This document shows positions 10,317 to 46,784 of a stretch of 64,000 nt of DNA, in pieces. The translations under genes and the position numbers were made by a program. The notes under the pieces were generated by a model. It was given only the letters and a program-made list of their open reading frames with translations. It did no database searches and was not told the DNA's origin. Positions within the stretch are counted from its first letter, which is position 1; the number at the start of each line of letters is the position of its first letter. The DNA is from an uncultured Eubacterium sp. (GTDB taxonomy: Bacteria; Bacillota; Clostridia; Lachnospirales; Lachnospiraceae), in the NCBI GenBank assembly GCA_947089855.1, contig CAMUML010000002.1, positions 1 through 64,000 on the forward strand. Direction: 5' to 3'.

Positions 10317-10328
10317 CCCCCCCCCCCC
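10317..10328. repeat. C12 homopolymer (G12 on coding strand) between MBOAT and the SGNH-like gene
   Basis: The last G of the MBOAT TAG stop codon belongs to the tract, which continues to the ATG at 10316. Seven bases then separate the tract from the ATG at 10309, so the G run is the only Shine-Dalgarno-like sequence for that start. Length change here would alter ribosome spacing or coupling rather than MBOAT's frame. Confidence 0.9.
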
Positions 10329-11797
10329 TAAAAATTAAAATACAAAAAAGTACTGACCCCTCCAAAAGAAAATACACACCAGACAAACAAAAAAGCCACC
10401 ACAGCCGGGGCCAGTTTCTTTTGGATGTGGTTTTCCGCCACCGTTTTCGCATCCGGCATCCCAAGTATAATAACAAATGCCGCCACGCAATACCCAAGCA
10501 TAATGCAATATGGATACGCCTCCAGCAGCCCTGGTACCTGCCCGAGCAGGAACTGCCATTCCGGCTGTGAAAATGCCTGTGCCATCCCACTGGAAACCCC
10601 GCCAAAATCCATCCGTGCAATGGCCTTCAAAACCTGCAGCCCCTCAGAAATGCTGCCGGCCCGGAAGAATACCCATGCAATATTAATAAAGCCAAACGCA
10701 AGAGCCCAGCTAAACACAGGGTGCATGTGCCCCCACCATTTCCTGCACAGGCGTTCCAGAACCTGCGCCGCCCCATGCATAAGCCCCCATAAAAGGAATG
10801 TCCAGCCAGCCCCATGCCAAAGCCCGCTTAAGAAAAACACAATGAAAATATTGGCGTAGGTCCGGGCAGCCCCTTCCCTGCCCCCTCCCAGCGGGATATA
10901 TACATATTTCGTAAAAAAAGCCGTCAGCGTCATATGCCACCTTTTCCAAAACCCAGTAATAGTCAGGGCTTTATAAGGGGACGCAAAATTCACCGGCAGG
11001 TCGATATTCACCATCCAGCCCAGCCCCACTGCCATATCGCTGTAGCCGCTAAAATCAAAATAAATCTGGATGGTATAAAAAAGCATGGCAAGCAAGGCCG
11101 TCGTGGCATTTAAGCTGCCCACATCCGAAAATGCCCAGTTGGCCGCATTTCCAAATACATCCGCAAGCAGCACCTTTTTTGCAAGCCCAAACACAAACAG
11201 CGCCGTCCCTTTGGACAGGTTCCCCCAGTCGGCCTGCTTCCTCGAACGGTCCCGCAGCTGCGGGACCAGCACATCATGTGTAACAATTGGCCCTGCGACA
11301 AGCTGTGGGAAAAACGCCACATAGGCCGCATATTCCAGCAGGGAGTAGCCCATACCCCCCCCCGCCTGGCAGGCGTCCGCTAAAAACGAAACCTGCTGGA
11401 ACGTAAAAAAACTAATGCCAAGCGGAAGGGCTATATTAATCAGGTTAAAATCCTGCCCGAAAAACCGGTTGATATTTTCAAGGAAAAAATCCGTATACTT
11501 GAAATAGCCAAGCACCGCCAGGTTTAGGGTTATGCCAGCTATTGTAATTATTTTGCGCACCTTAGCGCCGGGTTTTGCAGGGAAACGGTTTATCAGCCGG
11601 TAGATGCCATAGTTCCCCAGGATACTGCCGGTAATCAGCACCAGGTATTTGGGGTTAAAATAACCATAAAACCACAGGGACATGCACAATAAATAGAGCA
11701 GGCCCATACGGTAACATTTGAAATGGTTCCATAAAAAATAGCCGCACAGGCAGGCTGGAAGGAACAGAAAGATAAATATGTATGAATTAAACAGCAT
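10328..11797 (-). CDS. MBOAT-family O-acyltransferase (AlgI-like)
   Basis: A multi-pass membrane enzyme of 489 residues that passes acyl groups, usually acetyl, across the membrane to a surface glycan, normally with an SGNH partner such as the next gene. Family blocks FFPQLVAGPIVTHD, FDFSGYSDMAVGLG and FWKRWHMTLTAFFTKYVYIPLGG are present, along with SGLWHGAGWTF bearing the catalytic His. A G9 run at residues 145-148 encodes Gly-Gly-Gly in a loop (DACQAGGGMGYS). The frame is intact, so this copy is in an ON state. The likely ribosome site is GGATGGAG before the ATG. Confidence 0.93.
   Translation of the reverse strand: MLFNSYIFIFLFLPACLCGYFLWNHFKCYRMGLLYLLCMSLWFYGYFNPKYLVLITGSILGNYGIYRLINRFPAKPGAKVRKIITIAGITLNLAVLGYFKYTDFFLENINRFFGQDFNLINIALPLGISFFTFQQVSFLADACQAGGGMGYSLLEYAAYVAFFPQLVAGPIVTHDVLVPQLRDRSRKQADWGNLSKGTALFVFGLAKKVLLADVFGNAANWAFSDVGSLNATTALLAMLFYTIQIYFDFSGYSDMAVGLGWMVNIDLPVNFASPYKALTITGFWKRWHMTLTAFFTKYVYIPLGGGREGAARTYANIFIVFFLSGLWHGAGWTFLLWGLMHGAAQVLERLCRKWWGHMHPVFSWALAFGFINIAWVFFRAGSISEGLQVLKAIARMDFGGVSSGMAQAFSQPEWQFLLGQVPGLLEAYPYCIMLGYCVAAFVIILGMPDAKTVAENHIQKKLAPAVVAFLFVWCVFSFGGVSTFLYFNF
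11355..11363. repeat. G9 tract in the MBOAT gene (in frame)
   Basis: Nine C on the plus strand, coding GGG GGG GGT for Gly residues in a loop between membrane helices. Gain or loss of one base would truncate the enzyme at about one third of its length. Confidence 0.9.
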
Positions 11798-11858
11798 AAA
11801 AACTCCATCCTCTCAACTATAGGGATCCATTTCCAGCCAGGCGGACTATCCCTGCCAC

Positions 11859-12648
11859 CTATCTGGCAAACCCAGTTTTAGAAAGCAAATGCTTCCTTCT
11901 AAATAATAGGAACGGTTTTAATATTTTCGCCTTTCCAGTGCGGTAAACATCCCCTTCAAAAATTTCCACTTCATCTCCTCCAAATTCTTTTTTAAATTTG
12001 GAAATATTGGCAAAATATTCATTTACCATATTATAACCGCCCCAGTCCAATCTTTGGAATCCGATCCTTTTTAATTCCACCATATCTGCCCAATGCAGAT
12101 ACCGGTTCGCATGCCCAACCGCCTGCCTTCCTTTTACATCCAAGCTGCGGTATAAGGAAAAAGACGATTGGAGGATCACGTTGCCTACCTTTTTATTTCC
12201 CAAATAAATATGGCAGGCCATTACCTGCCCATCACTTTTTATCACAGATGCATATAAAATCCCACGTCTTTGGTAATTGGCATATTTTCGCCTGATAACC
12301 GCAACCGTATCACATGGCAGCTGTTTTTCATTGCGGAAAGCAACGTATTCTTTGGCCAAAAAATCCAATAAACCATCGCTGATGTCTGCACTTCCATTAA
12401 ACGTCGGCACCATTCCATCTTTCATCCCACGCCTAATTTCATTTTTGTTTTGCTGCGGATTTTAGCAAATAGCTCCTCTTCATCGACAGTAAGGTCAGAA
12501 AAAAGCGTATACCCCCCCCCTTGCAGTAATCCCCCTTATTAGAATAAGCAAACCGGTATTGAACTATATCCCCAGCATTTACGGTTTTCTCATCACATTC
12601 TGATGTAACCTGGGTAAATCCCCATTTCTTTTTCTCTTCAACAACCAT
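11859..12648 (-). pseudogene. FemAB/GNAT-like transferase, currently out of frame at a G9 tract
   Basis: Two adjacent open frames make one protein of about 263 residues. The first (12439-12648) runs MVVEEKKKWGF to SNKGDYCKGGG, then leaves frame at the G9 tract. With one more G the frame continues YTLFSDLTVDEEELFAKIRSK. A second single-base shift in the A5 run near 12440 then joins NEIRRGMKDG and the long second frame (11859-12425). The composite resembles FemAB/FemX-like or GNAT-fold aminoacyl- or acyltransferases, which are common in glycan loci: KIRSKTKNEIRRG is the typical helix and RLDWGGYN a core strand. As sequenced it is off. The second shift could mean permanent decay, a second variable site or a base-call error. 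Confidence 0.65.
12512..12520. repeat. G9 tract in the FemAB-like gene (frame-breaking length)
   Basis: Nine C on the plus strand. At this length translation enters a non-homologous frame that stops within about 25 codons; ten (or seven) G would restore the expected frame up to a second A-run shift. Confidence 0.85.
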
Positions 12649-12690
12649 ATCATCCCCCTAAACCGTCCGAAAACTCTACAGCCCCTCCCC

Positions 12691-14208
12691 TTATTTCACC
12701 TGCCGTTTACGTATCGCTGTATAATAATACCGAAACTCAGGGCGCCATGCATTGAGCCCTACCATTGATACTGCCAACAGGCCGAAACAGGCTGCTGCAT
12801 ATAGGATAAACTCTGCATACCCCCTGACTGGTCGTTCCATTAGAATTGGGTAGCCGATACAGACCGGGACAGAAAGCAAAAAAATATAAGATGTTACTGT
12901 TTTTATAAGTTCCACCACGGAAACCGCAAACAGATATTTTGCCAATACATACAGCGTGGAGCAAACCGTAACCATAGACGATAGTACTGTAGCAAGCAAT
13001 ATCCCATCCATACCGTACCTTACCCCAAGCACAACGGACAGCAAAACATTCAAAAACGCTTCTACAAGATAGCAATACTGGTCCTTTTCATAAACCCCTC
13101 CTGCCCATTTAAACGCTGTAAACAGGCCGATAAACCCTCCGTTTCCAAGCATCATTACCCAGGCAAATAAAATCACGGTACTTTTACTTAACAAAAATCT
13201 TTCGCCAATCCAAACGCGGATAAATGGATTTACTAACAGCATAAAACACCCAATACATAAAAACGATACAAGCATATATGCAAATAACAGCTTTTTAAAC
13301 AATTCATAAATATGGCCCCCATTCCTTTCAGCAATAAAATTTCCGATACTGGCCGTCAACGACCCCTTTACCATAACCATAAAAGTAACGATCATATTCG
13401 ACACGCTCATATAATTTGCATACAAACCCGCTGCCTTCAAGCCTGCTATTTTCGTGATCATTATCGTATCGGTACCACTGAAAATAACATAGGAAAAATG
13501 GATCCAAAAACCTGCATATATTTTTTTCATAATCCCCGTTTTTTCTTGTGTATCTAAAGAGCCCCGTTTTATCTGGAATACCTGTCCATACTCCCGCCTG
13601 CATTTCCAGGAGACCAATATACATGGCGCAACGGAACACAGCATCTGGATAAACATATAAACCTCAAAAGACTGGAAATAAACCAGGACCAGCAGCTGCA
13701 GCACGTATTGTACAAATGCAAAAACCTGTGTATAAATTTTGCAGATATACGTCTTTTGGGCCGCATTCAGCAGCGCAGTATAATGCAGGCAAAGGTAATT
13801 TACCGCAATCTGAAAAAGAAACAGCAAATAAATATATTCGATATGTTCTATACTGGTACGGCCTATCACCCAATCCAAAAACGGCAAAAGCGCCAAGCCC
13901 GCAGCCACCATAACAATCACAACCACGCCAAACAACTTATGCATATACCGCAGGAGTACGCTGGTTTTTTGATAATCCTTATGATAGACAGGGTGATATA
14001 AGGCGCTTTCAAAAACAGCACCGGCGCCGCTTTCCGCCAAGGAAAGCACCGTTATAATATTAGAAAACAAACCATTCGCACCTAAGTATTCCTCTGATAA
14101 ATACTTGAGGAACACAGCCCGTACAGCCAGGGATAGCACTACTGCGGACCCCTGGGCAAAAATACCGGCTGAAAGATTTTTCAATACAAACCATTTTCTG
14201 CTTTCCAT
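12691..14208 (-). CDS. Polysaccharide flippase (Wzx/MATE-like)
   Basis: A 505-residue integral membrane protein with about 12-14 hydrophobic helices. The N-terminus LKNLSAGIFAQGSAVVLSLAVR and the following KYLSEEYLGANGLFSNIITVLSLAESG are typical of the oligosaccharide flippase family of Gram-positive capsule loci. It would move lipid-linked repeat units of operon 1 to the outer face for EpsG-type polymerisation. It starts 7 bases after the methyltransferase stop, with a GAGG site overlapping the junction. No homopolymer tract is present, consistent with a core function. Confidence 0.9.
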   Translation of the reverse strand: MESRKWFVLKNLSAGIFAQGSAVVLSLAVRAVFLKYLSEEYLGANGLFSNIITVLSLAESGAGAVFESALYHPVYHKDYQKTSVLLRYMHKLFGVVVIVMVAAGLALLPFLDWVIGRTSIEHIEYIYLLFLFQIAVNYLCLHYTALLNAAQKTYICKIYTQVFAFVQYVLQLLVLVYFQSFEVYMFIQMLCSVAPCILVSWKCRREYGQVFQIKRGSLDTQEKTGIMKKIYAGFWIHFSYVIFSGTDTIMITKIAGLKAAGLYANYMSVSNMIVTFMVMVKGSLTASIGNFIAERNGGHIYELFKKLLFAYMLVSFLCIGCFMLLVNPFIRVWIGERFLLSKSTVILFAWVMMLGNGGFIGLFTAFKWAGGVYEKDQYCYLVEAFLNVLLSVVLGVRYGMDGILLATVLSSMVTVCSTLYVLAKYLFAVSVVELIKTVTSYIFLLSVPVCIGYPILMERPVRGYAEFILYAAACFGLLAVSMVGLNAWRPEFRYYYTAIRKRQVK

Positions 14209-14215
14209 CCTCAGC

Positions 14216-14971
14216 TCATTCTTTCTTTGCTACACATAATATTTCATTCGTATAATAATTTTGCGACCCCCTCGTTTTCTTTGCATATTTATTGCATATA
14301 CAGCCGCTTAAATGCATAATTAGTTTTTCAGCGGTTGAAAACTTGATATTTGCATCCTTTGCATAAAACTTTGCATAGTGGGCCGCATTATTATTCATTT
14401 CTTTTAATTTGTCAAATGTATTTCCATTTTTTCGCAGCTCTACCATGCGGAAGCCATACTTTTGAAATACTTCCCGGTACCAATATTCACTCAACCCGTT
14501 ATAGTAAAAATAAGGCGCCATATGGCATCCGCTGCATGCCGGAGCGGTTGTGATCAATGTCCCCCCCCCGCGTAAAATTCTGGAAAATTCCTTGACCGCC
14601 AGGTCCGGGCGTAAAATATGTTCAAACACCTCCGTACAGATCACCGCATCAAAACTGCCGTCTTCCACAGGTATATCGATAATATCGCTGACAATATCAA
14701 TATGGCTTGTATCCCAGGCGGCATTGGAATCCGACGGTGTCGCCAGCTTTCTTTCCTGTTCGGACACAGCAACACCCCGCACCTGGCAAAAATCCTGTGA
14801 GACATAATCCAATTTGGAACAAAACTGTTTATTCTTACACTGCCCAGCCCCTGCATCCAGCACCCGGGCCCCCGCCGGCAAACGTTCAATCCGCTTTTGC
14901 GTCCACCGCATCCTCCGCTCATAAAGGCTCTTTCCATAGATTTTTCTATACAGCTTTTCCTTTAATGCCAT
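14216..14971 (-). CDS. SAM-dependent methyltransferase (class I)
   Basis: 251 residues from the ATG at 14971, which has an AAGGAAC ribosome site and overlaps the asnB stop by 26 bases; an upstream ATG at 15001 is less likely. Motif I (VLDAGAGQ), an acidic post-I region and FDAVICTEVFEHIL show a Methyltransf_11/23 fold. In a glycan operon it probably methylates a sugar or a precursor, but its substrate is unknown. The G9 run at residues 135-137 falls in the ILRGGGTLITT strand-turn, where the family usually has RPGG, so the tract replaces a normal turn and keeps the frame open. Confidence 0.88.
   Translation of the reverse strand: MALKEKLYRKIYGKSLYERRMRWTQKRIERLPAGARVLDAGAGQCKNKQFCSKLDYVSQDFCQVRGVAVSEQERKLATPSDSNAAWDTSHIDIVSDIIDIPVEDGSFDAVICTEVFEHILRPDLAVKEFSRILRGGGTLITTAPACSGCHMAPYFYYNGLSEYWYREVFQKYGFRMVELRKNGNTFDKLKEMNNNAAHYAKFYAKDANIKFSTAEKLIMHLSGCICNKYAKKTRGSQNYYTNEILCVAKKE
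14561..14569. repeat. G9 tract in the methyltransferase gene of operon 1
   Basis: Nine C on the plus strand, coding exactly Gly-Gly-Gly after Arg134. In frame at the present length. Confidence 0.9.
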
Positions 14972-16865
14972 CGGTTCCTTCCCTTTCATAAATCTTCCCA
15001 TCTAAAAAAATAGATGCCCATAATTCCAACGAAAATGCTACCCACAGCAGTTCCACTTTACTGCTGTCATAAGTGCCATTTTTTTCGTATTGCAAAACCT
15101 GCCCTTTCCAAACATGCATGATATAGCCATACTCCAGCAGACGGCGACGTTGGATCCCTGGAAGCAATACTTCTTCAATATACGCCCTTATGGCGCCTTT
15201 CGTAAAATAATCCATTAACGGTATGCCAAACCCTCTTTTTTTCCGGTAAGCAAAGTCCTTTCCAAAAATTTCTGCCACGGCTTCTTTTAAGATTAACTTA
15301 CCCTCTTCCCGCACCAAAAAATGGTCAGGGACCGTACATACATATTCTACAAGTTCCGGCATTAAAAACGGTACCCGCACCTCAACTGCAGACGCCATCG
15401 ATGCTTTATCCGCCCGCATCAACAAATCCTGCAAATAAGTCCTAACTTCGTAATTCATCAGTTGCCGGATACCCCTCCCCGGAGTATTATCCATGATTTT
15501 TTTCCGTTTTCTTAAAATACCTTCCACGTTTGCTTTTACATACAGCTTCCTGACATCTTTACTTTTTACAAACTGGTTTGCCTGGATAAACTCAGACTGG
15601 TAATCCCAAAGGGACGGCAGATACCCTTTTATATCCTTTTCCCGCAACATCCGCCGCAGCACCCTCGCGCGCCGGAAAAATGGCCGCTTAGAAAGCTTGG
15701 AAAAAAGTGCGAACCTCGGGTATCCGCCCAACGTTTCATCCGCCCCTTCCCCGCACAGCATAACCGTAATTTTTTCTTTCGCCCTCTTGTTCAGATACAA
15801 TACACCCAGCGTCCCTTCATGGTTCATAGGCGCTTCAAAAAAATAGGTGGTTTCCTTCCAGCTTTTTAAAAACTCAGCCTCCCCAAAATTATACTGCTCT
15901 GCTTCCACTCCGCATTTTGCTATAACGGTATCCATATACGCTTTTTCTGAATATTCTTTCCCATCAAAAACAATCCCGAATGTCTTTAACCTGTTACGGA
16001 CCATCTGGCTGGCCTGATAGGTCAGGAACGAAGAATCTACACCTCCCGACAATTGGATGCCTACTTCTAAATCACTGACCATCCGGCTGGAAACCGCTTT
16101 CTTTAAAAGCTGCCCAAACTGCGTTTTGCATTCCTCTTTGGACATGGTTTCCTTTTGCTTTACATCCGGCAAAATCCAATAAGTTTTTTCCACTGCGCTT
16201 TGCGGCGTGATCATTAAATAGGAACCTGGCTTTAAATTCCTTACGCCTTTTAATAACGTCTTGCCATTTGTAATATAGCGGAACATCAGGTATTCTGTTA
16301 AAACCCCTTCATTTAATTCCGGCTTAAAACATGGATGGCAGTAAAACGCTTTATATTCGGATGCCCACAGGAAAACCTCACGGTCTTGATACACATACAA
16401 TGGCTTTTCGCCTATTTTATCCCTGGCCAAATAGACGCAGTTTTTCCTTTTATCCAAAATACCAATCGCATACATGCCATCCAGCTTATCCAGCATACCC
16501 TCTAAGCCATATTCCTCATATAAATATAACAGCACTTCCGTATCGGAAGTACCACGGAACAAATACCCCATTTCCTGTAATTGGCCCCGGTATCCATCCG
16601 CATTATAAATCTCCCCATTAAACGTAATGCAAATATCTTTTCCTTTATTCCACATCGGCTGGTGGCCCGCATCTGATAAATCACGGATGCTTAAACGGAC
16701 GAATCCAAGTGCGACTTCTTTTCCTCCCAAAGTATCCAATACTGTCCCTTGGTCGTCTGGCCCCCTGTGCCCCAGCATATGTTCCATTTTCTGGATAACA
16801 GCCCCAGCCGCCATAGGGCTGCCATCCGCACGTTTCCTTTGTATCAATCCCATAATGCCGCACAT
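14946..16865 (-). CDS. Asparagine synthetase B-type glutamine amidotransferase
   Basis: The N-terminal Ntn glutaminase domain begins MCGIMGL with the catalytic Cys2. The C-terminal ATP-pyrophosphatase domain has the PP loop QLSGGVDSS and RVPFLMPELVEY. The 639-residue length is typical. Within this operon, which also makes a UDP-uronic acid, the likely job is amidation of a hexuronic acid (as proposed for WbpS-type proteins in O-antigen loci) rather than free asparagine synthesis; this is inference from context. It follows an ATP-grasp ligase gene by 4 bases, indicating tight translational coupling. Confidence 0.92.
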   Translation of the reverse strand: MCGIMGLIQRKRADGSPMAAGAVIQKMEHMLGHRGPDDQGTVLDTLGGKEVALGFVRLSIRDLSDAGHQPMWNKGKDICITFNGEIYNADGYRGQLQEMGYLFRGTSDTEVLLYLYEEYGLEGMLDKLDGMYAIGILDKRKNCVYLARDKIGEKPLYVYQDREVFLWASEYKAFYCHPCFKPELNEGVLTEYLMFRYITNGKTLLKGVRNLKPGSYLMITPQSAVEKTYWILPDVKQKETMSKEECKTQFGQLLKKAVSSRMVSDLEVGIQLSGGVDSSFLTYQASQMVRNRLKTFGIVFDGKEYSEKAYMDTVIAKCGVEAEQYNFGEAEFLKSWKETTYFFEAPMNHEGTLGVLYLNKRAKEKITVMLCGEGADETLGGYPRFALFSKLSKRPFFRRARVLRRMLREKDIKGYLPSLWDYQSEFIQANQFVKSKDVRKLYVKANVEGILRKRKKIMDNTPGRGIRQLMNYEVRTYLQDLLMRADKASMASAVEVRVPFLMPELVEYVCTVPDHFLVREEGKLILKEAVAEIFGKDFAYRKKRGFGIPLMDYFTKGAIRAYIEEVLLPGIQRRRLLEYGYIMHVWKGQVLQYEKNGTYDSSKVELLWVAFSLELWASIFLDGKIYEREGTDGIKGKAV

Positions 16866-16869
16866 ACTG

Positions 16870-17823: not shown

Positions 17824-18623
17824 GGTTGCCCCCTGAGAAACCCTTTCAACCCTTTCTTTACATCCCTTAAAAATGGGTGTATATAACATTCATATATTAC
17901 AAAAATCTGTTCTTCGGTCAAGGAAATCCATGTGTTCCGGTTTTCCAGTGAGAAACATTCGGAATAATCACAAATATACTCCCGATATTTTGCAATATAT
18001 TGTTCCAGCCTCCGGAAAGAAGCATGGTCCATATGGTTGGTATGGAAACAGATTGTCGTAATGCCGCATACCGGTTTTAATCCTGTTGCAAAAATACGCA
18101 CTGGTATAAACTCAATGCCGCCCCGTTTGTATTTTCCAAACGACCTCCCGTCAGACACCACCCGAAACCCCGTCATCCGCAATGCCCGGACCGTATTTTT
18201 ATCATAGGAATGCCCTGGGGCGAAAAAAATATCCGTATCCAGCGAATCACGCTTCATCTGCATTTTACCTGCCTTTAAAAGCCTTACCTGCGCTTTCAGG
18301 CTCTTGCCTGCAAATTCACTTTTGGGCCTTTTTGTAACAATCCCTTTTGCCGTACTGTCATATATATGGTATGTACCATGCATTGCAACCGCATACCCGT
18401 TTAGCCGGCACTGCTTTATAATATCTGCATAATGTGGGGATTCTTCCTGAACCATCAGCGACGCATCCCGGTTCCTTGGGACAATCCCTAACAATGGCTT
18501 TATATGATAGCGGTCCAGTATATCCCGCATCGTTACAAATTTTTGCATATCCATCGTAGCGCATATATCATCCAGCCGAAAAACGATTCTTTTTGTTTTT
18601 TGGCAGTGTAATATACGCCCCAT
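17820..18623 (-). CDS. Polysaccharide deacetylase-like protein (DUF2334 type)
   Basis: 267 residues from the ATG at 18623, chosen because the conserved part begins just after it; the open frame runs to 18707. RIVFRLDDICATMD carries the Asp-Asp metal site of the NodB-like fold, AMHGTYH supplies a metal His, and FAPGHSYD matches the late catalytic motif. It probably removes N- or O-acetyl groups from a glycan or precursor. No signal peptide is visible, so action on a cytoplasmic lipid-linked substrate is more likely than on the wall. It overlaps copy B of the ATP-grasp family by 56 bases. Confidence 0.75.
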   Translation of the reverse strand: MGRILHCQKTKRIVFRLDDICATMDMQKFVTMRDILDRYHIKPLLGIVPRNRDASLMVQEESPHYADIIKQCRLNGYAVAMHGTYHIYDSTAKGIVTKRPKSEFAGKSLKAQVRLLKAGKMQMKRDSLDTDIFFAPGHSYDKNTVRALRMTGFRVVSDGRSFGKYKRGGIEFIPVRIFATGLKPVCGITTICFHTNHMDHASFRRLEQYIAKYREYICDYSECFSLENRNTWISLTEEQIFVIYECYIHPFLRDVKKGLKGFLRGQP

Positions 18624-19536
18624 ATTCCAACTGTTTCTCCTCTGGTTCAATAATATTGCACCCTCCTGCATGGTGAAATGTAATCTCACCAAAATAGATT
18701 TTTCCATCCACGTTATATAAATCTACCCTGCAATGGATAAATGGTTTGGAAAGTTTTTCCGCAACCGCAATCATCTCTTCCCATCTATCTGGTTTTTTTA
18801 CTAGGCCAGGTTCAAAATTTTCCCTGGTAAACCGGATTGGCTGCAGTGTAAATTCCCTGTCGTAAATATTACGCCGGGCATACTGGGAATGTCCCCCCCC
18901 CGGGTCCATCGTCCCAATGTCAACCATAATAAATTTCACTTCCCCATGAAAACACATAAACCGGTAATCCACCAGCCCTGCTTTTCCAGTTTCCGTCAGA
19001 AATTCTTCACAAAAAATCCTTGGCTGGATACCCTTATAGTTATATTCCCTGGAACTCCAAAAATAATCACGTGCCATCCAATAGCCAAATTCCCGCCGGA
19101 AACTACCATAATCAAATTCTTTTGACCGGTCATAAATCATGTTGCATCCCGATGAATGGTTGCATTTAAGCAAACACCGGCCCGGCAGTTCGTTAAACAC
19201 AACCTCTTTATAACTGCTATACGTCTTTTTGCCGATGCGTGTTAAAATACTTCCAAGCCCGCAGCCTCGAACATAATCCCTAACCGTAAGTTTATCCGTA
19301 CATATTTTATACAAGGGGTTTTTATCGTATAATTTCAACCACCATATTTTCTCATCTAAAGTAACTGGCCGTTCCAAGTTTAGTTTCTTTCCACATTTGT
19401 TTTGATAACACATTTGCGCAAACTCTTCGTCTGATAAATCATTATACCTGTTATTTTTCCGATGCCGAAGATACGCATACAGCGGAAAGGTTACCGCTGA
19501 ACCGCTTATGATATGTTTCACCTTTTCTGCCAGCAT
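18568..19536 (-). CDS. TupA-like ATP-grasp ligase (copy B)
   Basis: 322 residues. LDEKIWWLKLYDKNPLYKIC, CLLKCNHSSGCNMI and IYFGEITFHHAGGC match copies A and C. The ATG at 19536 is preferred over TTG at 19542 because GGGAGG is 10 bases upstream. The G9 run at residues 212-215 gives TMDPGGGHSQYARR, at a place where relatives have a variable loop, and the frame is open. As for its paralogues, an amino-acid or related ligation onto a uronic acid is suggested but unproved. Confidence 0.85.
   Translation of the reverse strand: MLAEKVKHIISGSAVTFPLYAYLRHRKNNRYNDLSDEEFAQMCYQNKCGKKLNLERPVTLDEKIWWLKLYDKNPLYKICTDKLTVRDYVRGCGLGSILTRIGKKTYSSYKEVVFNELPGRCLLKCNHSSGCNMIYDRSKEFDYGSFRREFGYWMARDYFWSSREYNYKGIQPRIFCEEFLTETGKAGLVDYRFMCFHGEVKFIMVDIGTMDPGGGHSQYARRNIYDREFTLQPIRFTRENFEPGLVKKPDRWEEMIAVAEKLSKPFIHCRVDLYNVDGKIYFGEITFHHAGGCNIIEPEEKQLEYGAYITLPKNKKNRFSAG
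18893..18901. repeat. G9 tract in TupA-like copy B
   Basis: Nine C on the plus strand, coding the end of Pro plus Gly-Gly-Gly in a variable loop. In frame at present length. Confidence 0.9.
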
Positions 19537-20612
19537 CCGCAAACGACCTCCCTAAAGTAATTTCTATATTGCCTTGCAATATACCCAATCCTGTAATAAT
19601 TTTGCACTGTCCTGGCTGCTTCTTTGGAAACGGCTTCCAGATCCACCTGCCGTCCTATAATCTGCGCCATACATTTTTTTAAAGCGTCCGCATCCTTTTG
19701 AGGGATTAAAAATCCATTCTTTCCATTTTGAATGACCTCCGACGGCCCAAAATCAAAATCCGCCGCTATACAGATACATCCACAGGCCATTGCCTCAAGC
19801 AAGGCATTTGGCATCCCCTCATAATGGCTGCAGATTAGAAAAAAACGGTATGTTTTCAATATCTGGCTTACTTGATCCGTATTTCCGCATAGCTTAATAT
19901 AATCTTGTGCGCCGGCCGCCGCAATCCTGTTTCGAAGCCTGCTTTCTTCTGGCCCGCCCCCATATATATGCAGCGTATACCGTTGGTCGATTGCATGGAG
20001 CCTGGAAAACATCTTTATCATATGCCCGTAATTTTTGGCACTGACCAGCCGCCCCACTGCACAAAACCCCCATTGGCCTTTCCTCTCCGCCCCTTTTTCA
20101 GAAACAGTAAAATCCCTGCTGACCGGATTGTGGATCACCGCCCCTTTTGCCCCATAACAGCTTTGCGCCCCTTTTGTCTGAAAAATATAGCCGTCCGAAA
20201 GATAATAAAAAAACTTATTCCAAAGCAATTCCTTACGGCTATAAGCCATAAAAGGATTTGTCCTCTCCGACCCAATCACTTTTACAATACCTTTCCCCGC
20301 AGCCACCGCCTGGTACAGATTGCCTGCCCCCATGCTTAGAAGCACATCAAACCGCCTTTTTTTCAAATACATCCGCAAGGTGCGGATGATACGGTAATTG
20401 TATTTCAACTTATCGGCAACCTTTTGATTATTCTGCATTTTATACAAATGGACCAGCTCTACTTTTTCATCCACCTCATAATCCGGACTGCCTTCGTCAA
20501 TCATCACGATTGCCACCGTATCGTTCCTCTTTGTAAAGTAATTTGCAAGGTTAACCGTAACCCTTTCTGCCCCGCCTTTTTTTAGGGATGAAATATAAAT
20601 TGCAATCTTCAT
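19518..20612 (-). CDS. Family 4 glycosyltransferase (GT-B)
   Basis: 364 residues. The N-terminal MKIAIYISSLKKGGAERVTVN is the acceptor-side motif of GT4 enzymes. The C-terminal donor site has CSHYEGMPNALLEAMACG with the EX7E glutamates. It would add one sugar to the lipid-linked repeat on the inner face of the membrane. Donor and linkage cannot be read from sequence. It overlaps the next gene by 19 bases. Confidence 0.92.
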   Translation of the reverse strand: MKIAIYISSLKKGGAERVTVNLANYFTKRNDTVAIVMIDEGSPDYEVDEKVELVHLYKMQNNQKVADKLKYNYRIIRTLRMYLKKRRFDVLLSMGAGNLYQAVAAGKGIVKVIGSERTNPFMAYSRKELLWNKFFYYLSDGYIFQTKGAQSCYGAKGAVIHNPVSRDFTVSEKGAERKGQWGFCAVGRLVSAKNYGHMIKMFSRLHAIDQRYTLHIYGGGPEESRLRNRIAAAGAQDYIKLCGNTDQVSQILKTYRFFLICSHYEGMPNALLEAMACGCICIAADFDFGPSEVIQNGKNGFLIPQKDADALKKCMAQIIGRQVDLEAVSKEAARTVQNYYRIGYIARQYRNYFREVVCGCWQKR

Positions 20613-20658
20613 TTTTTCCAGATAAAACCTCTTCCTTTACTGTTTCTCATTGCCCAAC

Positions 20659-21723: not shown

Positions 21724-21762
21724 TTTCACATCCTCCAACGGCAGTAAGCCATCTAGTGCATT

Positions 21763-22917: not shown

Positions 22918-22918
22918 T

Positions 22919-23857
22919 TTATTTCTTTCCTGGCAGTTTTATATAATTGCCAAATTCGATATTATACTTATATGGTTCAAATTCTTCTGTTCCTGCAAAT
23001 TGGCACATAGTTAACTCCCCGAATTTTACATGTTCAAATTTGTCAATATAAAAATCTACCCTGACATGAGGCACCCCAGCAGACAATTTTTCTGCACATT
23101 CCAGCATTTCATCCAATTGTACTGGCCTTGGAATCTTATACGTGCTGTTAGGATAATGCTGCTTAACCGGAAGCCTGTTCCAATTCAGGTCAAAAAAATC
23201 AAATTTTGTATCTTTTCCCCTGTCTGATGCGACAAACAAAAATTTCGGCTTCCCATGAAAACAAAAAATCTTATAATCTTTTGGAACCTCATTGTTGTGG
23301 GTAGCTATGACTTCTTCCACAATAATTCTGGGTTTAATATGTTTATAACACCATATACGCCCTACGTAATAATAATTTACCGCTAAAGCATCCTTTATTT
23401 TTTTCTTCACTTTTTGAACATCGAATTCTCCCCCCCCCTTTCGTTTTACCACTACCGATCCACAGTCATGTGTGCATTTTATTACATATTCTTCCGGCAG
23501 CTTATCAAAGGGAACTTCTTCAATACTATTGTACACGCCAATTAACGGCACAAGATAACGCTCATCCTGCAGCTTGTCCATAACATATCCCCTTACCGCA
23601 TATTTATCCGCAAATTTCGTGTATAAAGGATTATGGTCATGCAAATTCAGCCACAGAATCTTTTCATTAAAGGTTACTGGATGTGCAAGGTTTAACTCGT
23701 GTCCGGTATTTTCTTTATACATCTTTTTTAAAAACTGTTCATCGGACATTTTAGACAGCCTATGGATCCGCCTCCTGCTCAATATCCGGTAGGCCTCTGC
23801 ACACAATGCACTTTTATGGACAACACTTCTTGCAGCCATTTTGATATTATGGTTCAT
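22919..23857 (-). CDS. TupA-like ATP-grasp ligase (copy C)
   Basis: 312 residues. FNEKILWLNLHDHNPLYTKF, YVIKCTHDCGSVVV and HVKFGELTMCQFAG match the TupA-like family. The G9 run at residues 141-144 (VKRKGGGEFDVQK) follows the nucleotide-binding strand directly, in frame. It is transcribed after the UDP-GlcNAc 4-epimerase-like gene, in keeping with a role on a uronic-acid-containing glycan. Confidence 0.85.
   Translation of the reverse strand: MNHNIKMAARSVVHKSALCAEAYRILSRRRIHRLSKMSDEQFLKKMYKENTGHELNLAHPVTFNEKILWLNLHDHNPLYTKFADKYAVRGYVMDKLQDERYLVPLIGVYNSIEEVPFDKLPEEYVIKCTHDCGSVVVKRKGGGEFDVQKVKKKIKDALAVNYYYVGRIWCYKHIKPRIIVEEVIATHNNEVPKDYKIFCFHGKPKFLFVASDRGKDTKFDFFDLNWNRLPVKQHYPNSTYKIPRPVQLDEMLECAEKLSAGVPHVRVDFYIDKFEHVKFGELTMCQFAGTEEFEPYKYNIEFGNYIKLPGKK
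23428..23436. repeat. G9 tract in TupA-like copy C
   Basis: Nine C on the plus strand, coding the end of Lys plus Gly-Gly-Gly. In frame at present length. Confidence 0.9.
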
Positions 23858-33978: not shown

Positions 33979-34002
33979 ATTTTCCTCACATTCATATAGT
34001 AT

Positions 34003-34916: not shown

Positions 34917-34976
34917 AAAATGAAATCCCTCTCCTGTATCAACGTTTTATTACATTATACACGTTATCCGCGACAT

Positions 34977-35329: not shown

Positions 35330-35475
35330 AAACTCCCCATAACGTCTTGTGTTCAGACAAACAGCCTCCATCAAATAAATATTCTTGCACCAACAAAAAC
35401 AACATTTACGGGCCAAATGATACACAACTGGGAGCAAGCAGTCCTCAGGGATGGGTATGATACCCTGCCATCGGC

Positions 35476-38172: not shown

Positions 38173-38201
38173 TTATATTCTCCAAACCAATAAAACTATA
38201 A

Positions 38202-39218
38202 TTACCAATAAGCACCTTTTTCTACCTTCTGGTATCCATCTGGACGTTCCTTTTGCCCTGGCCTGGTCCAATATGGGTTCAGTATCCCTTTTTCTTTTAA
38301 ATACTGTTCATAGCGGGCGCCATAAATGCCAAATAATACCTGTAAAGAGCCGCATAAGGTAATCGCTTTTTTTCCACATCTTTTGGCATGAGCCGCAAGG
38401 TGGAATGCATATGCCCCACACCCGATCAGCGCAATCTCATAATCGATTTGATCCATCTGGCTTTTCATAAGATCGAGTGCATCAAACCAGCTGTTTATAT
38501 TTTTATCATGGTTGGCCCCGCCCAGGATGTTGTATGCTTTTATGGTTGTTAAAGAAAATTCCGGCAGGACCTCTTTATTTTGAAACAGCTTTTCCCTTTT
38601 TTTGTATTGTTTTTTTATCGTTTCTGCGAATGGAGATATAACAAGCACTTTGCGCCCTTTCAATTCACTGCTCCACGGATTGTTGAAATTATACGGCCAA
38701 TACATTTCTGAATTTAATACTCTTGGAACCCCATTGAAATATCCGGAAATATACTTTTCCATTTCCTGCCAGGTAAATAATAAATCAACCAGTTCTATAT
38801 CTTTTTCAACGTATTCCCCCCCCCACTTTTCCAGGCTGCTATTGGTAACTGGAAAAAATCCTGCATTGTTATGCATCGTCCTTTTTGTCCCTATACAATA
38901 CCAATTCGGAAAACACCGGTCTTGGATATACTTTAAATCCGAATACGCATAGCTGCGTTCCAGCCTTCCATTTACTTGAAGCCAGTTACAAAACGCACAC
39001 AATTCCACACTTCCAAAACGCACAAGCATCACCGGTGCATCCGACCTGATAAATTGTTTAATGGTTTCCTGCCCTTTTGAATAATGCCCTTCGTGGATGG
39101 AGTTATTTGGATATTGCCCATCCCGAAAAATGACTGGAAAAAATGTTTTTTTTACTTTGTGCATATATTCCATTAATAATTGTTTTTTTGTTAACTCATT
39201 CGTATATAGATTTCTCAT
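38202..39218 (-). CDS. Putative GT-D-fold glycosyltransferase
   Basis: 338 residues from ATG 39218, which has a GGAG site and clears the upstream stop; the frame is open to 39317. APVMLVRFGSVELCAFCNWL resembles the RFGDGE block of the GT-D (SP1767/DUF1792) family, and VLVISPFAETIKKQY and IALIGCGAYAFHLAAHAKR the later conserved segments. The RFGSVE change from RFGDGE makes the exact family uncertain. A G9 run at residues 132-135 encodes W-G-G-E in frame. Confidence 0.6.
   Translation of the reverse strand: MRNLYTNELTKKQLLMEYMHKVKKTFFPVIFRDGQYPNNSIHEGHYSKGQETIKQFIRSDAPVMLVRFGSVELCAFCNWLQVNGRLERSYAYSDLKYIQDRCFPNWYCIGTKRTMHNNAGFFPVTNSSLEKWGGEYVEKDIELVDLLFTWQEMEKYISGYFNGVPRVLNSEMYWPYNFNNPWSSELKGRKVLVISPFAETIKKQYKKREKLFQNKEVLPEFSLTTIKAYNILGGANHDKNINSWFDALDLMKSQMDQIDYEIALIGCGAYAFHLAAHAKRCGKKAITLCGSLQVLFGIYGARYEQYLKEKGILNPYWTRPGQKERPDGYQKVEKGAYW
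38816..38824. repeat. G9 tract in the GT-D-like gene
   Basis: Nine C on the plus strand, coding TGG GGG GGG Gaa (Trp-Gly-Gly-Glu). In frame at present length. Confidence 0.9.
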
Positions 39219-39255
39219 AGGATGCTCTCCAAAACCCAATATTGTTGCCACTGTA

Positions 39256-40314
39256 TCAAGCCCTTTTATTCCAATAACGTATAAACAGCTTCTTTGCAGG
39301 CTTTTCGATCCATTCATAAAAAAATACAGCCAGTACGAGACAGATACCTGCTGACAAAATTATTTTAAATAAATTGCTGTTGATACCAGAAACAGCTACT
39401 ATGTATTTGGTAATTGGCCAAGTAAAAAACTGGGCCATAAAAATTCCATAAGAAATTTCACTAAGGTAAATAACCGGTTTCCAATTCCCCCCCCCGGTTA
39501 TTTTGCTTGCTGCTACTAACATTAGGATCAATAACGGCAAAGAAAAGATATTATACAGCAGGTAATTATGGACATAAAATCCCCGCTTAACAGCATAGGA
39601 AACGGCTGCAATAAAAACGATGAACGCTGTGCTAAATACAAGAATATTTTGAACTTTTGCATGCGGGGCCTGTATTTTTTCCTTGTTTGCCAATGAACAC
39701 AACAGCGATCCAATGGTAAATTCTATCAACCGAAAAAATGGATTGGCATAAATATCTGCTGTCCCAAATTCCAGGGCAATAAAAGGGGCGAGCAGCAAAA
39801 TACCTGCGATTACCGCCCCTATTATAAATTTTTGTATATATCCCATTTGCTGTAGTAATTGCTGTAAAAAAGGGAATAATATATAACAGGCCATTAGGCA
39901 GGAAAGAAACCATGTCCCACTGTTGTGTGATTGAAAAAACAGCCCTGGGAACATCGCCTGCAGGCCAAATAGCTCAACTGGTAACAACAGCAGGTTTTGC
40001 TCCCAACTTTCTTTTCCCAAAAAAAGCACATAAAAGGCCCCGGCCACATAATATAAAGGCAACAGCCCAGCCATCCTTTTTCCATAAAAATAGCTCCGGT
40101 TTTGCTTTTGAGCCAAATCTGTACCAGCGTAGACATCATACATGACATATCCAGAAAGCATATAAAAGCCTGTCATAAAAATAGCGCCCATAAGAATGTA
40201 TTCATTCAAAAATCCATAGCTGCACCCCAGATGAAGCTGCTGGTGGAACAGAAACACCGTTGCTGCACTGATGATCCTAAATATATCCAGCCCAACCATC
40301 CGTTGCTGTTTCAT
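39256..40314 (-). CDS. Membrane O-acyltransferase (Acyltransferase_3 family)
   Basis: 352 residues with about 10 membrane helices. GLDIFRIISAATVFLFHQQLHLG carries the family His near the N-terminus, and SGTWFLSCLMACYILFPFL the central motif. It would acetylate (or otherwise acylate) a sugar on lipid-linked units or polymer. A G9 run at residues 274-276 encodes Gly-Gly-Gly in the loop before PVIYLSEISYG. It overlaps its upstream neighbour by 4 bases. Confidence 0.9.
   Translation of the reverse strand: MKQQRMVGLDIFRIISAATVFLFHQQLHLGCSYGFLNEYILMGAIFMTGFYMLSGYVMYDVYAGTDLAQKQNRSYFYGKRMAGLLPLYYVAGAFYVLFLGKESWEQNLLLLPVELFGLQAMFPGLFFQSHNSGTWFLSCLMACYILFPFLQQLLQQMGYIQKFIIGAVIAGILLLAPFIALEFGTADIYANPFFRLIEFTIGSLLCSLANKEKIQAPHAKVQNILVFSTAFIVFIAAVSYAVKRGFYVHNYLLYNIFSLPLLILMLVAASKITGGGNWKPVIYLSEISYGIFMAQFFTWPITKYIVAVSGINSNLFKIILSAGICLVLAVFFYEWIEKPAKKLFIRYWNKRA
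39487..39495. repeat. G9 tract in the Acyltransferase_3 gene
   Basis: Nine C on the plus strand, coding exactly Gly-Gly-Gly between two membrane helices. In frame at present length. Confidence 0.9.
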
Positions 40315-41015: not shown

Positions 41016-41108
41016 ACTATCAAACCTCCATTTCCATCAATTACTTCAGCTAAAACAGACTGTAAATGTTAAAAGCGTCAGGCAAATATTTCCTTTTTAC
41101 ACATTCCT

Positions 41109-42221: not shown

Positions 42222-42627
42222 GATCCGGATGCCCCTTTACATAGTTTAAAAATTCATCGTAGTCCCTAATATAATCCGTTTCATCATAAAATTCAGACGC
42301 CAGCACCATTAGGACTGCATCTGGCGAAAAATCAAACATTTCCCGCCACATATCATTGGCAACATAAAGGCCCTCGTATGGCTTTTCCAGGTGTACAGTT
42401 TTTTGCTCTTTGCCATTATCCAGCCTGATTTTACAGCTGCCGTGGATACAGACCAGTATCTGTTCTAAAGATTTATGCGCATGATGTCCACGCACAACGC
42501 CGGAAAGCGTATCATACATATAATAAACACGTTTAATCCGAAACGGAATATCCTTTAATTCTTCCAGTGCAATTAACTGCCCCCTGTCGTCGCCGTGGGG
42601 CTGGAACATATATTTTATAACCTGCAT
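42208..42627 (-). CDS. fdtA: dTDP-4-oxo-6-deoxyglucose 3,4-ketoisomerase (FdtA/WxcM-like)
   Basis: 139 residues, a single cupin domain. [18 protein letters not shown] and [19 protein letters not shown] contain the conserved His pair of the FdtA/QdtA/TylM family. The substrate comes from RmlA/RmlB, which are not in this window. FdtA and QdtA give galacto or gluco products respectively; sequence reading alone cannot settle which. Confidence 0.85.
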
Positions 42628-42650
42628 CGTATCCGTTTCCCCTTTCTTGC

Positions 42651-42813
42651 TTAGGAGCTGTATGTAAATAACCGGTGACAGTTGCGCCGGATTTTTTTTC
42701 GAAAGTGCCAGGTAAAAATTAGGCGCATAGCGGGCTATGTAACTGATTTTTGCCTAGTGCCCCCGCAGAAAAAGATAAGCAAATGGCATAGGTTATTTAC
42801 ATACAGTTCCTTA
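42651..42813. mobile_element. 157-bp fold-back element with 3-bp target duplication (GGAACTGT family)
   Basis: Ends GGAGCTGTATGTAAATAACC (42654-42673) and GGTTATTTACATACAGTTCC (42791-42810) are complementary with one mismatch; TTA flanks both sides. The interior folds further, for example GCCAGGTAAAAATTAG against CTGATTTTTGCCTAGTGC, so the whole element is one long hairpin. It lies between the flippase stop and the fdtA ribosome site inside operon 2, where it could reduce downstream expression. Confidence 0.8.
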
Positions 42814-42814
42814 T

Positions 42815-44335: not shown

Positions 44336-44372
44336 TTTTCCCTTTGCCTGAGTGATCCATCACCTAAAAAAC

Positions 44373-45038
44373 CTACTTCTTTTTTGCCCATATCACCGTT
44401 TCAAACCCCCAAAAAGCCCAAGTTCCGCTCAATACCTTTTTCTGCTTTCGGCTCTTTGCCTCCATACCCCCCCCCATAATCCAATAATACAGCGGCTGAT
44501 AACCTTTGATGGCCTTAACCTCTTGCATCCCTTCTTTTTTCAGCCATTTTAAAACCTGTTCCATCTCCGGCACATAAATATGTGTCGGGTCATCATAAAA
44601 GTTCAGGGTGCCTTCCCTGTGAGGGAAATGGACGCTCTCACTATTGGGAAACGAAAGGAATAGCTTCCCGCCACTCTTTAATTTTGCGCACATGGCCTTT
44701 AATGTCTCTTCTGGATGATTGCAATGTTCCAAATTATGGCTGGAAATAACGGCATCAAAACTTCCGTTTAAATGACGAATCCCCTCTGCAAACCGTTCTG
44801 ATTGAAATACTTGGTATTCATCCGCCAACGCAATTGATTTTGGGGAATTATTATAATTGCCGACATCTACCCCTACATAATAAGCATCCGGACATAACTG
44901 TTTCGTCAATGTCGGCGAGTTGTTTCCACATCCCACATCCAAAATCTTGGCCTTCTTCCCACGTAAAAGCAGCAAAAACGTTTGTTTTCCCCACCTTGTC
45001 CTTGGAACCCTCATTAACGCTTTCCTCAACCGATTCAT
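44373..45038 (-). CDS. SAM-dependent methyltransferase, operon 2
   Basis: 221 residues from ATG 45038, which has GGAG 8 bases upstream; a GTG at 45113 also opens the frame but has no ribosome site. ILDVGCGNNSPTLTK is motif I; AVISSHNLEHCNHPEETL and LKSGGKLFLSFPN complete a Methyltransf_11 fold. A G9 run at residues 188-191 gives YYWIMGGGMEAKSR near the C-terminus in frame. Target sugar unknown. Confidence 0.87.
   Translation of the reverse strand: MNRLRKALMRVPRTRWGKQTFLLLLRGKKAKILDVGCGNNSPTLTKQLCPDAYYVGVDVGNYNNSPKSIALADEYQVFQSERFAEGIRHLNGSFDAVISSHNLEHCNHPEETLKAMCAKLKSGGKLFLSFPNSESVHFPHREGTLNFYDDPTHIYVPEMEQVLKWLKKEGMQEVKAIKGYQPLYYWIMGGGMEAKSRKQKKVLSGTWAFWGFETVIWAKKK
44467..44475. repeat. G9 tract in the operon 2 methyltransferase gene
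   Basis: Nine C on the plus strand, coding the end of Met plus Gly-Gly-Gly; slippage would change only the last 30 or so residues. Confidence 0.9.
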
Positions 45039-45293
45039 AACAGCCGCTCCATTTCTGTACCATTTCAGCCTAAATTTTAGGTTCGTAATTTTCTGGCGTA
45101 CTATTTTTACCACCGCCGCCCATACACCAAACAGCCTACTCCTATTGACCTATGCTTGACCCTTTTTTCATACCGCTGGTTTACTGCTTTCCACAGCTTT
45201 GTCAATAACAAATAACAGCTTTTTGCGTTATCCTATTAACCAACATATTTTGCAATGGAAACTGTTAAGAGCAAATATAAGGCAACGGTTCCA

Positions 45294-45887
45294 TTATTTC
45301 TGCAATGCCATACCCGTTACTTTCTCCCAGGCATGCGTTGTAAAATTGTATTTTTTGATTACTTTAGCTGGATTACCGACTGCAATGCAATAATCTGGTA
45401 CGCTTTTTGTCACTACGCTACCTGCCCCTATCACTGCTTTTTTTCCAATGGACACACGCCCCCCCTCCCCGGAAATAATACATACTTTTTCTCCAATCCA
45501 TGCCCCGTCTTTTATTACAATTGCTTGCCCTTGGCATGGCTGTTCCCCATATGCTAACCTATTTTCCACGTTGGTACCATGGCTGCCTGATGAAAGGAAG
45601 ACATCAGACGCAATTGCAACATGACTGCCAACCGTTACATTTGCCCCTGCAAGGACGGTAAAATTGTATCCAATCCCCGTATGGCTGCCTATACGCACGC
45701 GGACGTTTGGATCGCCTGATACATTCTGAATCCGTGCCCCGCCTAGAATATGGGAATTATCCCCCATATACAGGCAGCTTTTATCAATACATTTTGGAAT
45801 GCCGCTGATCAAGCTCTTTTTCCCGGCAGCCTGAATGCCCTTGATATTCTTTTTGTTAAAATAAGTTAAAATGAGTTTCCCTACCAT
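45294..45887 (-). CDS. Hexapeptide-repeat acyltransferase
   Basis: 197 residues of left-handed beta-helix repeats (VRIGSHTGIGYNFTVLAGANVTVGSHVAIAS type) ending VGNPAKVIKKYNF, as in CysE/MaeA/VatD-like sugar O-acetyltransferases. SSGSHGTN contains the candidate catalytic His. A G7 run (45459-45465) encodes GEGGRVS, a shorter relative of the G9 tracts. Probably acetylates a sugar nucleotide or repeat unit. Confidence 0.82.
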   Translation of the reverse strand: MVGKLILTYFNKKNIKGIQAAGKKSLISGIPKCIDKSCLYMGDNSHILGGARIQNVSGDPNVRVRIGSHTGIGYNFTVLAGANVTVGSHVAIASDVFLSSGSHGTNVENRLAYGEQPCQGQAIVIKDGAWIGEKVCIISGEGGRVSIGKKAVIGAGSVVTKSVPDYCIAVGNPAKVIKKYNFTTHAWEKVTGMALQK

Positions 45888-45950
45888 ACTTCCTGCCTTT
45901 ATAAAAAAAACTTTGTATTATGTTCATCAAATAATACTTTTTTACCACAA

Positions 45951-46784
45951 TTACCCCTCCATGCCCATAATAGCATTTATTTTTGCCGCGTTGCCCCAAA
46001 CTGCTTTGGAATCGTAGGGCCGGTCGGGGTAAGCCCCATACTGAAGCGTAATCTCATAGTGGTTTTCTTTAATAAACCGTTCCACCCGCTCGGAAAGTTT
46101 TTCTGGCCTGCCGCTGCAAATATTGATGATTCCATCCACACTGTCCTGCACTACTGCTGCGGCGGCCATTCTGCAAAAGGTATCATAGTCAAGGAAATCA
46201 AACTGGTTATAACCCATCGTAAATGGAAAATCCCTTTGGCCCCTGCCTGCTGCCTGTACAATTTTTGAAAAAATAGAACACCCATCCCCAGTATTCCCAA
46301 CTATATAAAATCCCCTTAACCATTTTAGCTTGGCCTGATTTTGCTTGGCTATAATTTCACAGGCTTCCCGCAAAGCATTCTTTGCAATCCCATAATAGCT
46401 CAACGGCCGGCATGGCGTCTGATCCTGGATACTCCCTTCAAAAAAACCAACTTCGTGCATACTTCCCAGAACGCATAACTCTTTGGTTCCTGCTTTACAT
46501 ATTTTTTCAATAAAACCCACATGCTCCGGCAAATCTTTGATATGGTTTGGAGAAAAATGTTTAAAGCCATCCCTCCAAGCTAAATGCAGCACACAATCCG
46601 GCCTTCCAAAATATTGGAATGGATCCGGGATATGAAAAATATCAGCAGAGATGCATTCGGCCCCGCCGACCCAGCCTGCTATATCCTTATCAACTGCAAC
46701 GACAGTTACCCCCCCCCGCTTTACCAAATGGCTTACGATACCTTGCCTCAAATATCCATTTGCACCCGTAACCAATAATTTCAT
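45951..46784 (-). CDS. NAD-dependent sugar epimerase/dehydratase
   Basis: 277 residues from ATG 46784 (MKLLVTGANGYLRQGIVSHL), chosen over the open extension to 46859. The GxxGYxxxG nucleotide site is near-standard; PLSYYGIAKNALRE holds the Tyr-x3-Lys pair. A G9 run at residues 23-26 sits just after the first helix (LVKRGGVTVVAVDKD), so slippage would abolish the enzyme. The substrate is undefined; an NDP-hexose or heptose is possible given the neighbours. Confidence 0.83.
   Translation of the reverse strand: MKLLVTGANGYLRQGIVSHLVKRGGVTVVAVDKDIAGWVGGAECISADIFHIPDPFQYFGRPDCVLHLAWRDGFKHFSPNHIKDLPEHVGFIEKICKAGTKELCVLGSMHEVGFFEGSIQDQTPCRPLSYYGIAKNALREACEIIAKQNQAKLKWLRGFYIVGNTGDGCSIFSKIVQAAGRGQRDFPFTMGYNQFDFLDYDTFCRMAAAAVVQDSVDGIINICSGRPEKLSERVERFIKENHYEITLQYGAYPDRPYDSKAVWGNAAKINAIMGMEG
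46709..46717. repeat. G9 tract in the epimerase gene
   Basis: Nine C on the plus strand, spread over Arg-Gly-Gly-Val codons near the start of the gene. In frame at present length; the most severe possible OFF switch of the set. Confidence 0.9.

Follow-up and report, generated by a model that had tools for sequence, protein, structure and literature searches.

A probable genome-wide set of poly-G phase-variation tracts, mostly in frame at nine, in an uncultured Lachnospiraceae bacterium

The stretch analysed here, called the window, comprises 64,000 nucleotides at the start of contig 2 of the assembly GCA_947089855.1 from an uncultured Eubacterium sp. of the Lachnospiraceae (4.08 Mb, 101 contigs, 89.7% complete; genome G000). 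Two glycan operons sit between ribosomal and transporter genes in this window and are separated by genes for an M56 peptidase and an AAA-ATPase-like protein. The plus strand carries nine runs of exactly nine C and one run of twelve C, which are all read as G by genes on the minus strand (Table 1). Each of these ten tracts lies within or beside a glycan gene: an MBOAT gene and the gene next to it, a broken gene, two methyltransferase genes, two TupA-like genes, a GT-D-like gene, an acyltransferase-3 gene and an epimerase gene. A sequence-only reading of the window had listed the ten tracts, and all are present with the lengths it gave, one of them starting at 23430 and not at 23428. The frame check also bore out its statement that eight tracts are in frame within open genes and that one (12512) sits where a gene leaves its frame; among the eight, all three codon phases are represented. 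We suggest that the ten tracts belong to a genome-wide set of poly-G tracts, mostly in frame at nine, which probably serves phase variation by slipped-strand mispairing.

Table 1. Poly-G tracts of the window and genes that hold or adjoin them
Feature	Position	Strand	Gene context
Gene directly downstream of G12	9273..10316	-	no Pfam match; follows the MBOAT gene
G12 tract	10317..10328	-	fills the gap from the TAG stop of the MBOAT gene to the ATG of the next gene; Shine-Dalgarno position
G9, in frame	11355..11363	-	codon 145/489 of MBOAT O-acyltransferase gene 10328-11797
G9 at frame break	12512..12520	-	downstream open frame 11859-12425, no Pfam match
G9, in frame	14561..14569	-	codon 145/261 of methyltransferase gene 14216-15001
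G9, in frame	18893..18901	-	codon 214/324 of TupA-like ATP-grasp gene 18568-19542
G9, in frame	23430..23438	-	codon 140/312 of TupA-like ATP-grasp gene 22919-23857
G9, in frame	38816..38824	-	codon 165/371 of GT-D-like gene 38202-39317
G9, in frame	39487..39495	-	codon 274/352 of acyltransferase-3 gene 39256-40314
G9, in frame	44467..44475	-	codon 213/246 of methyltransferase gene 44373-45113
G7 run, frame continues	45459..45465	-	hexapeptide-transferase gene 45294-45887
G9, in frame	46709..46717	-	codon 48/302 of NAD-epimerase gene 45951-46859

Runs of this length had been expected to be rare by base composition, and this expectation holds: the window contains 13 nine-mer matches, whereas 100 dinucleotide-preserving shuffles gave a mean of 1.65 (standard deviation 1.70). 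As single shuffles reached up to 8 matches, chance from a single composition is not zero, and the shape of the length distribution, with its gap at six to eight and its peak at exactly nine, is a stronger argument than the shuffles. The window has 58 C5, no C6, one C7 (45459), no C8 and nine C9, and on the plus strand no G run longer than five. In 412 kb of fetched DNA including the window, which covers 93 of the 94 tract places of G000 (all but C99:45) and one contig-end run, C/G runs of 5, 6, 7, 8 and 9 number 385, 23, 2, 2 and 79, and those of 10, 11, 12, 14 and 35 number 8, 3, 2, 1 and 1; A/T runs of 7, 8 and 9 number 295, 63 and 1. The exact counts for the whole genome are 8 G7, 13 G8, 79 G9 and 15 longer runs. 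Runs of at least nine amount to 94 when counted with the left flank and to 97 with the right flank, a difference which is due to runs at contig ends. The tracts are also clustered, since for 42 of the 94 the nearest other tract is no more than 5 kb away (null mean 19.2, maximum 41 in 2000 draws), and the ten tracts within 36.4 kb of the window compare with at most 7 in 500 draws. Both in length and in number the tracts therefore exceed what composition predicts, as do those of poly-G phase-variable loci. A cap at nine imposed by the sequencing platform was considered as the sole cause of the peak and rejected, as A/T runs of nine are rare family-wide (4 in 1.33 Mb from 79 relatives) and runs longer than nine are called as well. 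The run of 35 G is intergenic (L074:2099), and G14 stands at the end of other contigs, as though the assembly had broken off at long tracts.

Inside genes of four species, the length of the tract decides whether the reading frame goes on. We considered runs preceded by at least 300 bases of open frame and counted the frame as continuing when it stayed open for 100 bases past the tract. All fetched loci of G000 were included, together with loci of three of its 12 sister species (G001–G012, 13 species of the genus in all), namely 30 of the 63 tract loci of G002 and 20 stretches each of G005 and G003 from listed tracts, those of G003 drawn from its G8 and G9 lists only. In these four species the frame continues past 44 of 56 in-gene G9 tracts and past 3 of 31 tracts of 7, 8, 10 or 11 (Fisher p=2.6e-10; G7 1/3, G8 1/14, G10 1/11, G11 0/3); a single G12 gave 0/1. 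Among control runs in the same loci, 236 of 295 G5, 30 of 37 A8 and 19 of 26 T8 continue. The remaining 28 of the 31 tracts cut their gene short, and out-of-frame versions of tract genes thus exist, including LicD, whose gene in G000 is divided between two frames at a G10. Where a gene cut short has another frame open for at least 150 bases, 14 of 16 offsets agree with nine as the in-frame length (G10 6/6, G8 7/8, G11 1/1, G7 0/1; p=0.002 against a coin). The in-frame G9 tracts fall into all three codon phases (21, 14 and 9), so that runs of GGG codons alone are no explanation. Among the in-gene runs of at least nine, 71 have G on the strand read and 16 have C. The tracts thus lie inside frames whose continuation depends on tract length, as in poly-G phase-variable loci, and this matches the prediction of slipped-strand phase variation. 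Codon use in 150-base flanks, scored for coding potential, proved too weak to call frames, and open-frame lengths were used instead. At L044:1975 a G9 directly follows an apparent signal peptide; its frame stops just past the tract and another one is open for more than 2 kb, which makes it a candidate for a secreted protein whose frame is lost with nine G.

The tracts had been thought to be restricted to the two glycan operons. This is correct inside the window and wrong for the genome, as many of the 94 runs lie elsewhere, among others at genes for two-component proteins, AraC, LacI, flagellin, TadZ and integrase, and within a short repeat between genes. Of 50 open frames outside the window with a tract inside or next to them, we classed 24 as glycan-related, by our judgement on gene families (23 genes, LicD being in two pieces); they include GT4, GT8, GT11, MBOAT, acyltransferase-3, hexapeptide transferases, pyruvyltransferase, LicD, methyltransferases, TupA-like, DUF6625 and FrhB-type genes. 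The remaining frames code for kinases, response regulators, AraC, LacI, GNAT, radical SAM, integrase, TadZ, flagellin and unassigned families. Among the 25 of 154 families listed for 92 control frames from 20 stretches, the RmlD/epimerase group, with two members, is the sole sugar family with at least two, so that the listed control families are not concentrated on glycan genes in the same way. The 15 tract frames of G002 include GT8, GT2, PIG-L, methyltransferases and a sulfotransferase, one each. General scans of the tract frames turned up no sortase families; no search aimed at sortases was made. Of the phase variation proposed from the window alone a part is supported, with tracts beyond chance, many of them in glycan-tailoring genes, and with length deciding the frame in four species; the restriction to two operons falls.

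Comparison of homologous genes shows that tracts have been gained at independent sites and retained at shared ones. Four of the five TupA-like paralogues of G000 carry a tract, each at a different site; in the alignment three of these tracts bring one or two extra residues and one lies within a seven-residue insertion. Between species, 30 best-hit pairs of tract genes from G005 and G008 with labelled G000 proteins were compared, two further best hits to control frames being left out. In 27 of the 30 pairs both genes or the G000 gene has a tract, and in 6 of these 27 the two tracts coincide within two alignment columns and differ in length. The shared sites are in a GT4 gene (G9 in G000, G7 in G008), a GNAT gene (G9 in G000, G8 and G7 in two G008 genes), a radical SAM gene (G9 in G000, G8 and cut short in G008), the window methyltransferase at 14561 (G9 in G000, G8 with a broken frame in G008) and an FrhB-type gene (G9 in G000, G10 and cut short in G005). 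The radical SAM, methyltransferase and FrhB-type genes are thus interrupted in one species and uninterrupted in another, and the shared-site proteins are only 37–56% identical between species. The site in the methyltransferase is a glycine-rich motif anyway, so the coincidence there weighs less. The orthologue comparison of G000 with the 30 tract loci of G002 gave one informative gene pair: in G002 a permease has an internal G9 at a place where the codons of its G000 orthologue are interrupted, and G002 is without the upstream tract of G000.

Within the genus, the 12 sister species have 7, 63, 87, 16, 64, 47, 36, 3, 34, 113, 16 and 3 runs of at least nine. The counts are 0 to 14 in 24 other Lachnospiraceae genera and mostly 0 to 10 in 24 genomes from other families of the order, with 19 in G040 and 93 in G053, so that the trait is not unique to the genus. 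The runs of G053, partly piled at contig ends, may reflect a second lineage with the trait or an artefact. A peak of nine over eight is found in 9 of the 13 species (G000, G002, G003, G005, G006, G007, G009, G010 and G011) and is missing in G001, G004, G008 and G012.

One of these exceptions appears to differ in its mismatch repair genes. MutS (PF01624) and MutL (PF01119) were detected in 12 of the 13 species, among them G000, which in this respect is unlike a Campylobacter-type phasome, and neither was detected in G008 (96% complete). The runs of G008 are short (G7 77, G8 24, G9 1, longer 2). In 439 kb of this genome the frame continues past 9 of 15 in-gene G7 and 4 of 13 G8 (p=0.15), as compared to 146 of 162 G5, and the offset of genes cut short by G8 fits seven in 6 of 7 cases, which is no more than suggestive of an in-frame length of seven. 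These results could be understood if there were a genus-wide phasome with one set length fixed by mismatch repair, which at the same protein sites would be nine with mutS and mutL present and seven to eight after the loss of both. We put this forward tentatively, and regard it as doubtful as things stand. In G000 mutS and mutL are about 3.5 kb apart, so one assembly gap could explain both absences in the single species G008. Moreover, G001 leans to short runs (G7 38, G8 15, G9 7) and yet holds both genes. In G004, assembled in six contigs, the open frame with mutS is no longer than 193 aa and mutL is divided in two, which may be due to indel errors in the assembly or to real loss. If repair does set the length, evolution would hold the switching rate constant and not the length. 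The narrow in-frame length and a species without detectable mutS and mutL provide a direct test of mismatch repair shaping tract length.

We suggest that slipped-strand errors during replication would alter the tracts by one or a few bases, so that their length would vary within a population. A change in a coding tract would move the frame and lead either to read-through, mostly at nine, or to truncation just past the tract. Where a tract separates a stop codon from the following start, its length would alter the spacing of the ribosome-binding site, and for one or two tracts the spacing of a promoter; in either case expression would change. Because many tract genes tailor surface polysaccharide (glycosyltransferases, TupA-like ATP-grasp proteins, acyl-, acetyl-, methyl- and pyruvyltransferases, LicD), cells would come to differ from one another in their surface glycans, a variety on which selection could act and for which hundreds of states had been conjectured from the window. 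Tracts that abut a stop codon and the next start are found at window position 10317 and in L033, L050:8757 and L082. The first of them, the G12, would act on translation of the downstream gene, whose place after the MBOAT gene presumably corresponds to the arrangement of alginate-type O-acetylation pairs. In L082:1999-3845 a flagellin gene has a G10 four bases 5′ of its ATG, and this tract may switch motility or an antigen. The tract at 44467 is 3′ of the methyltransferase domain, and a slip there would therefore alter the tail only. The gene at the 12512 tract (window 12440-12520) has a second frame change 60–70 bases downstream in an A-rich stretch; with two frame changes it may be a decayed gene instead of a switch.

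Several observations weigh against this interpretation. The frame fails to continue past 12 of the 56 in-gene G9 tracts; runs of C9 continue in only 7 of 15 cases, and G6 runs, of which 9 of 16 continue, break often too. In partial loci of two further species 1 of 3 G9 (G006) and 1 of 2 G8 (G010) continue, which weakens the universality of nine. In 21 of the 27 homologous pairs the sites differ or lie outside the aligned part, many of these matches being below 30% identity. Many tracts of G000 lie outside coding sequence. A promoter-spacer class as a general feature was rejected, as it is not enriched overall (22 hits, where shuffled flanks predict 16.3); two spacers that look good, in L057 (TTGACA-15-TATAAT, near-perfect) and L055 (TTGACG-18-TATATT), are kept as candidates. 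Finally, poly-G length calls in short-read assemblies are error-prone (PMC4235727).

This last point leads to a different explanation, according to which the G9 tracts are real and do not switch, and the eights and tens are errors of assembly or sequencing with merely technical frame breaks. The frame breaks occur almost wholly at lengths other than nine and the downstream frame fits nine, and a miscalled G9 would give the same picture. Illumina assemblies are reported to break and to err often at poly-G (PMC4235727), a tract length unlike the database entry is noted in an excerpt on Bifidobacterium breve (PMC9187656), and some tracts of G000 lie at the end of a contig or close to it (end of C16, start of C23). 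On the other hand, technical errors leave the number and clustering of the tracts, the gains at separate sites in the TupA paralogues and the shared sites with seven, eight and nine in different species unexplained. The A8 and T8 runs in the same loci are unbroken, although this is no test of G runs. On balance we consider this explanation unlikely.

Neutral slippage is somewhat less probable still. A mutational bias would expand G runs to about nine, which would then decay; glycan genes would have more of them solely through their fast turnover and tolerance of loss, and there would be no selected switch. In fact runs do reach nine where no gene is read, in a 32-base palindromic intergenic repeat (TACTATTCACGGCC...CCGCTCATAGTA) with 63 copies in G000 and a variable central G run (e.g., L263 and L270 with G9; L247-L276). 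This run is five in 46 copies, four in 10, six in 1, seven in 1, eight in none, nine in 2 and interrupted in 3, and two more G9 copies have changed flanks. Few copies are found at six to eight, as if seven and eight passed fast to nine, and the lengths therefore favour a mutational attractor near nine and with it also the neutral explanation. The permease of G002 and its orthologue in G000 likewise point to fast gain and loss. In-gene G9 tracts, however, keep the frame as often as G5 runs and are hence unlike decaying genes, and neutral slippage would have to place tracts at the same protein site despite 37–56% identity and hit four of five TupA paralogues at separate sites.

We regard slippage during transcription as very unlikely. 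The RNA–DNA hybrid of RNA polymerase is about nine pairs long, and the enzyme could stutter on a run that fills it and produce a mixture of mRNAs in each cell from a stable G9; the peak at a single length and the bias for G on the coding strand (71 against 16) would fit. Yet in the assemblies the DNA itself has tracts of 7, 8, 10 and 11 at which the frame is broken, and A/T runs of nine, on which stuttering should come more readily, hardly occur. An origin by chance, through base composition or the choice of glycine codons, is hardly credible in view of the shuffles, the gap at six to eight, the three codon phases and the low counts in other genera, even though GGG is frequent, encoding 346 of the 1031 glycines in 36 genes of the window.

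As to the surroundings, RpoA assigns the genome to the Lachnospiraceae, and the nearest named relative, a metagenome bin of an uncultured 'Eubacterium sp.', has an RpoA of 96% identity. A synteny of the glycan loci with this relative was looked for and rejected, as its locus L091 aligns to window bases 92-8172 only (79% DNA identity), and the glycan loci are therefore not common to L091. The ribosomal protein L17 gene (window 4780-5337) codes for 185 aa, over residues 17-185 of which the Pfam model of 97 positions is spread, indicating a long insertion.

In Campylobacter jejuni the tracts have G on the coding strand in most cases. Strain NCTC11168 has 29 tracts of at least seven, and in-frame lengths vary by gene, cj0275 being on at G8 and cj1429 at G10 (part of PMC4965091); the species is without mismatch repair, according to a section of PMC4235727. 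The genomes studied here resemble this phasome in the large number of their poly-G tracts, which lie largely within genes for surface glycans, and in a frame that depends on length, from which we infer the switching. They differ from it by having mutS and mutL in 12 of 13 species, an in-frame length that is nearly always nine in four species, and up to 94 and 113 tracts. Haemophilus uses tetranucleotide repeats, and the LicD-type tract gene recalls, as we take it, lic1 as a switched gene of this organism. Like the contingency loci of Neisseria and Haemophilus, the tracts comprise coding, candidate promoter and end-of-gene classes, in other bacteria and with other gene sets; promoter and frame classes of contingency-locus repeats are treated in part of PMC4235727. 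It had also been supposed that such a system is not well described in a Gram-positive commensal. This is wrong in part, since B. breve switches sortase-dependent pili by an intragenic G tract whose slippage was measured by maximum depth sequencing; the same study refers to additional G tracts, of which some lie in promoter spacers (excerpt of PMC9187656). Both cases concern Gram-positive gut commensals with intragenic G tracts. In B. breve they are two pilus clusters with tracts of 10–12, and here they are dozens of loci, mostly for glycan tailoring, with tracts of nine. Invertible promoters of gut Bacteroides capsule loci and of Clostridioides create an on/off variety of surface glycans, by site-specific inversion and not by slippage (part of PMC11868660). 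Among the papers listed in searches of open-licence literature, of which one gave mainly unrelated papers, there was no report of poly-G tracts in Lachnospiraceae. Our results suggest that run-length switching of genes, known mainly from pathogens, is present in a genus of uncultured gut bacteria.

If the tracts switch, uncultured Lachnospiraceae commensals would hold one of the largest repeat-based sets, with up to 113 runs of at least nine per genome. Part of the strain variety seen in metagenomes would then be explained, and the surface glycans of a dominant gut family would be a moving target for immunity and phages.

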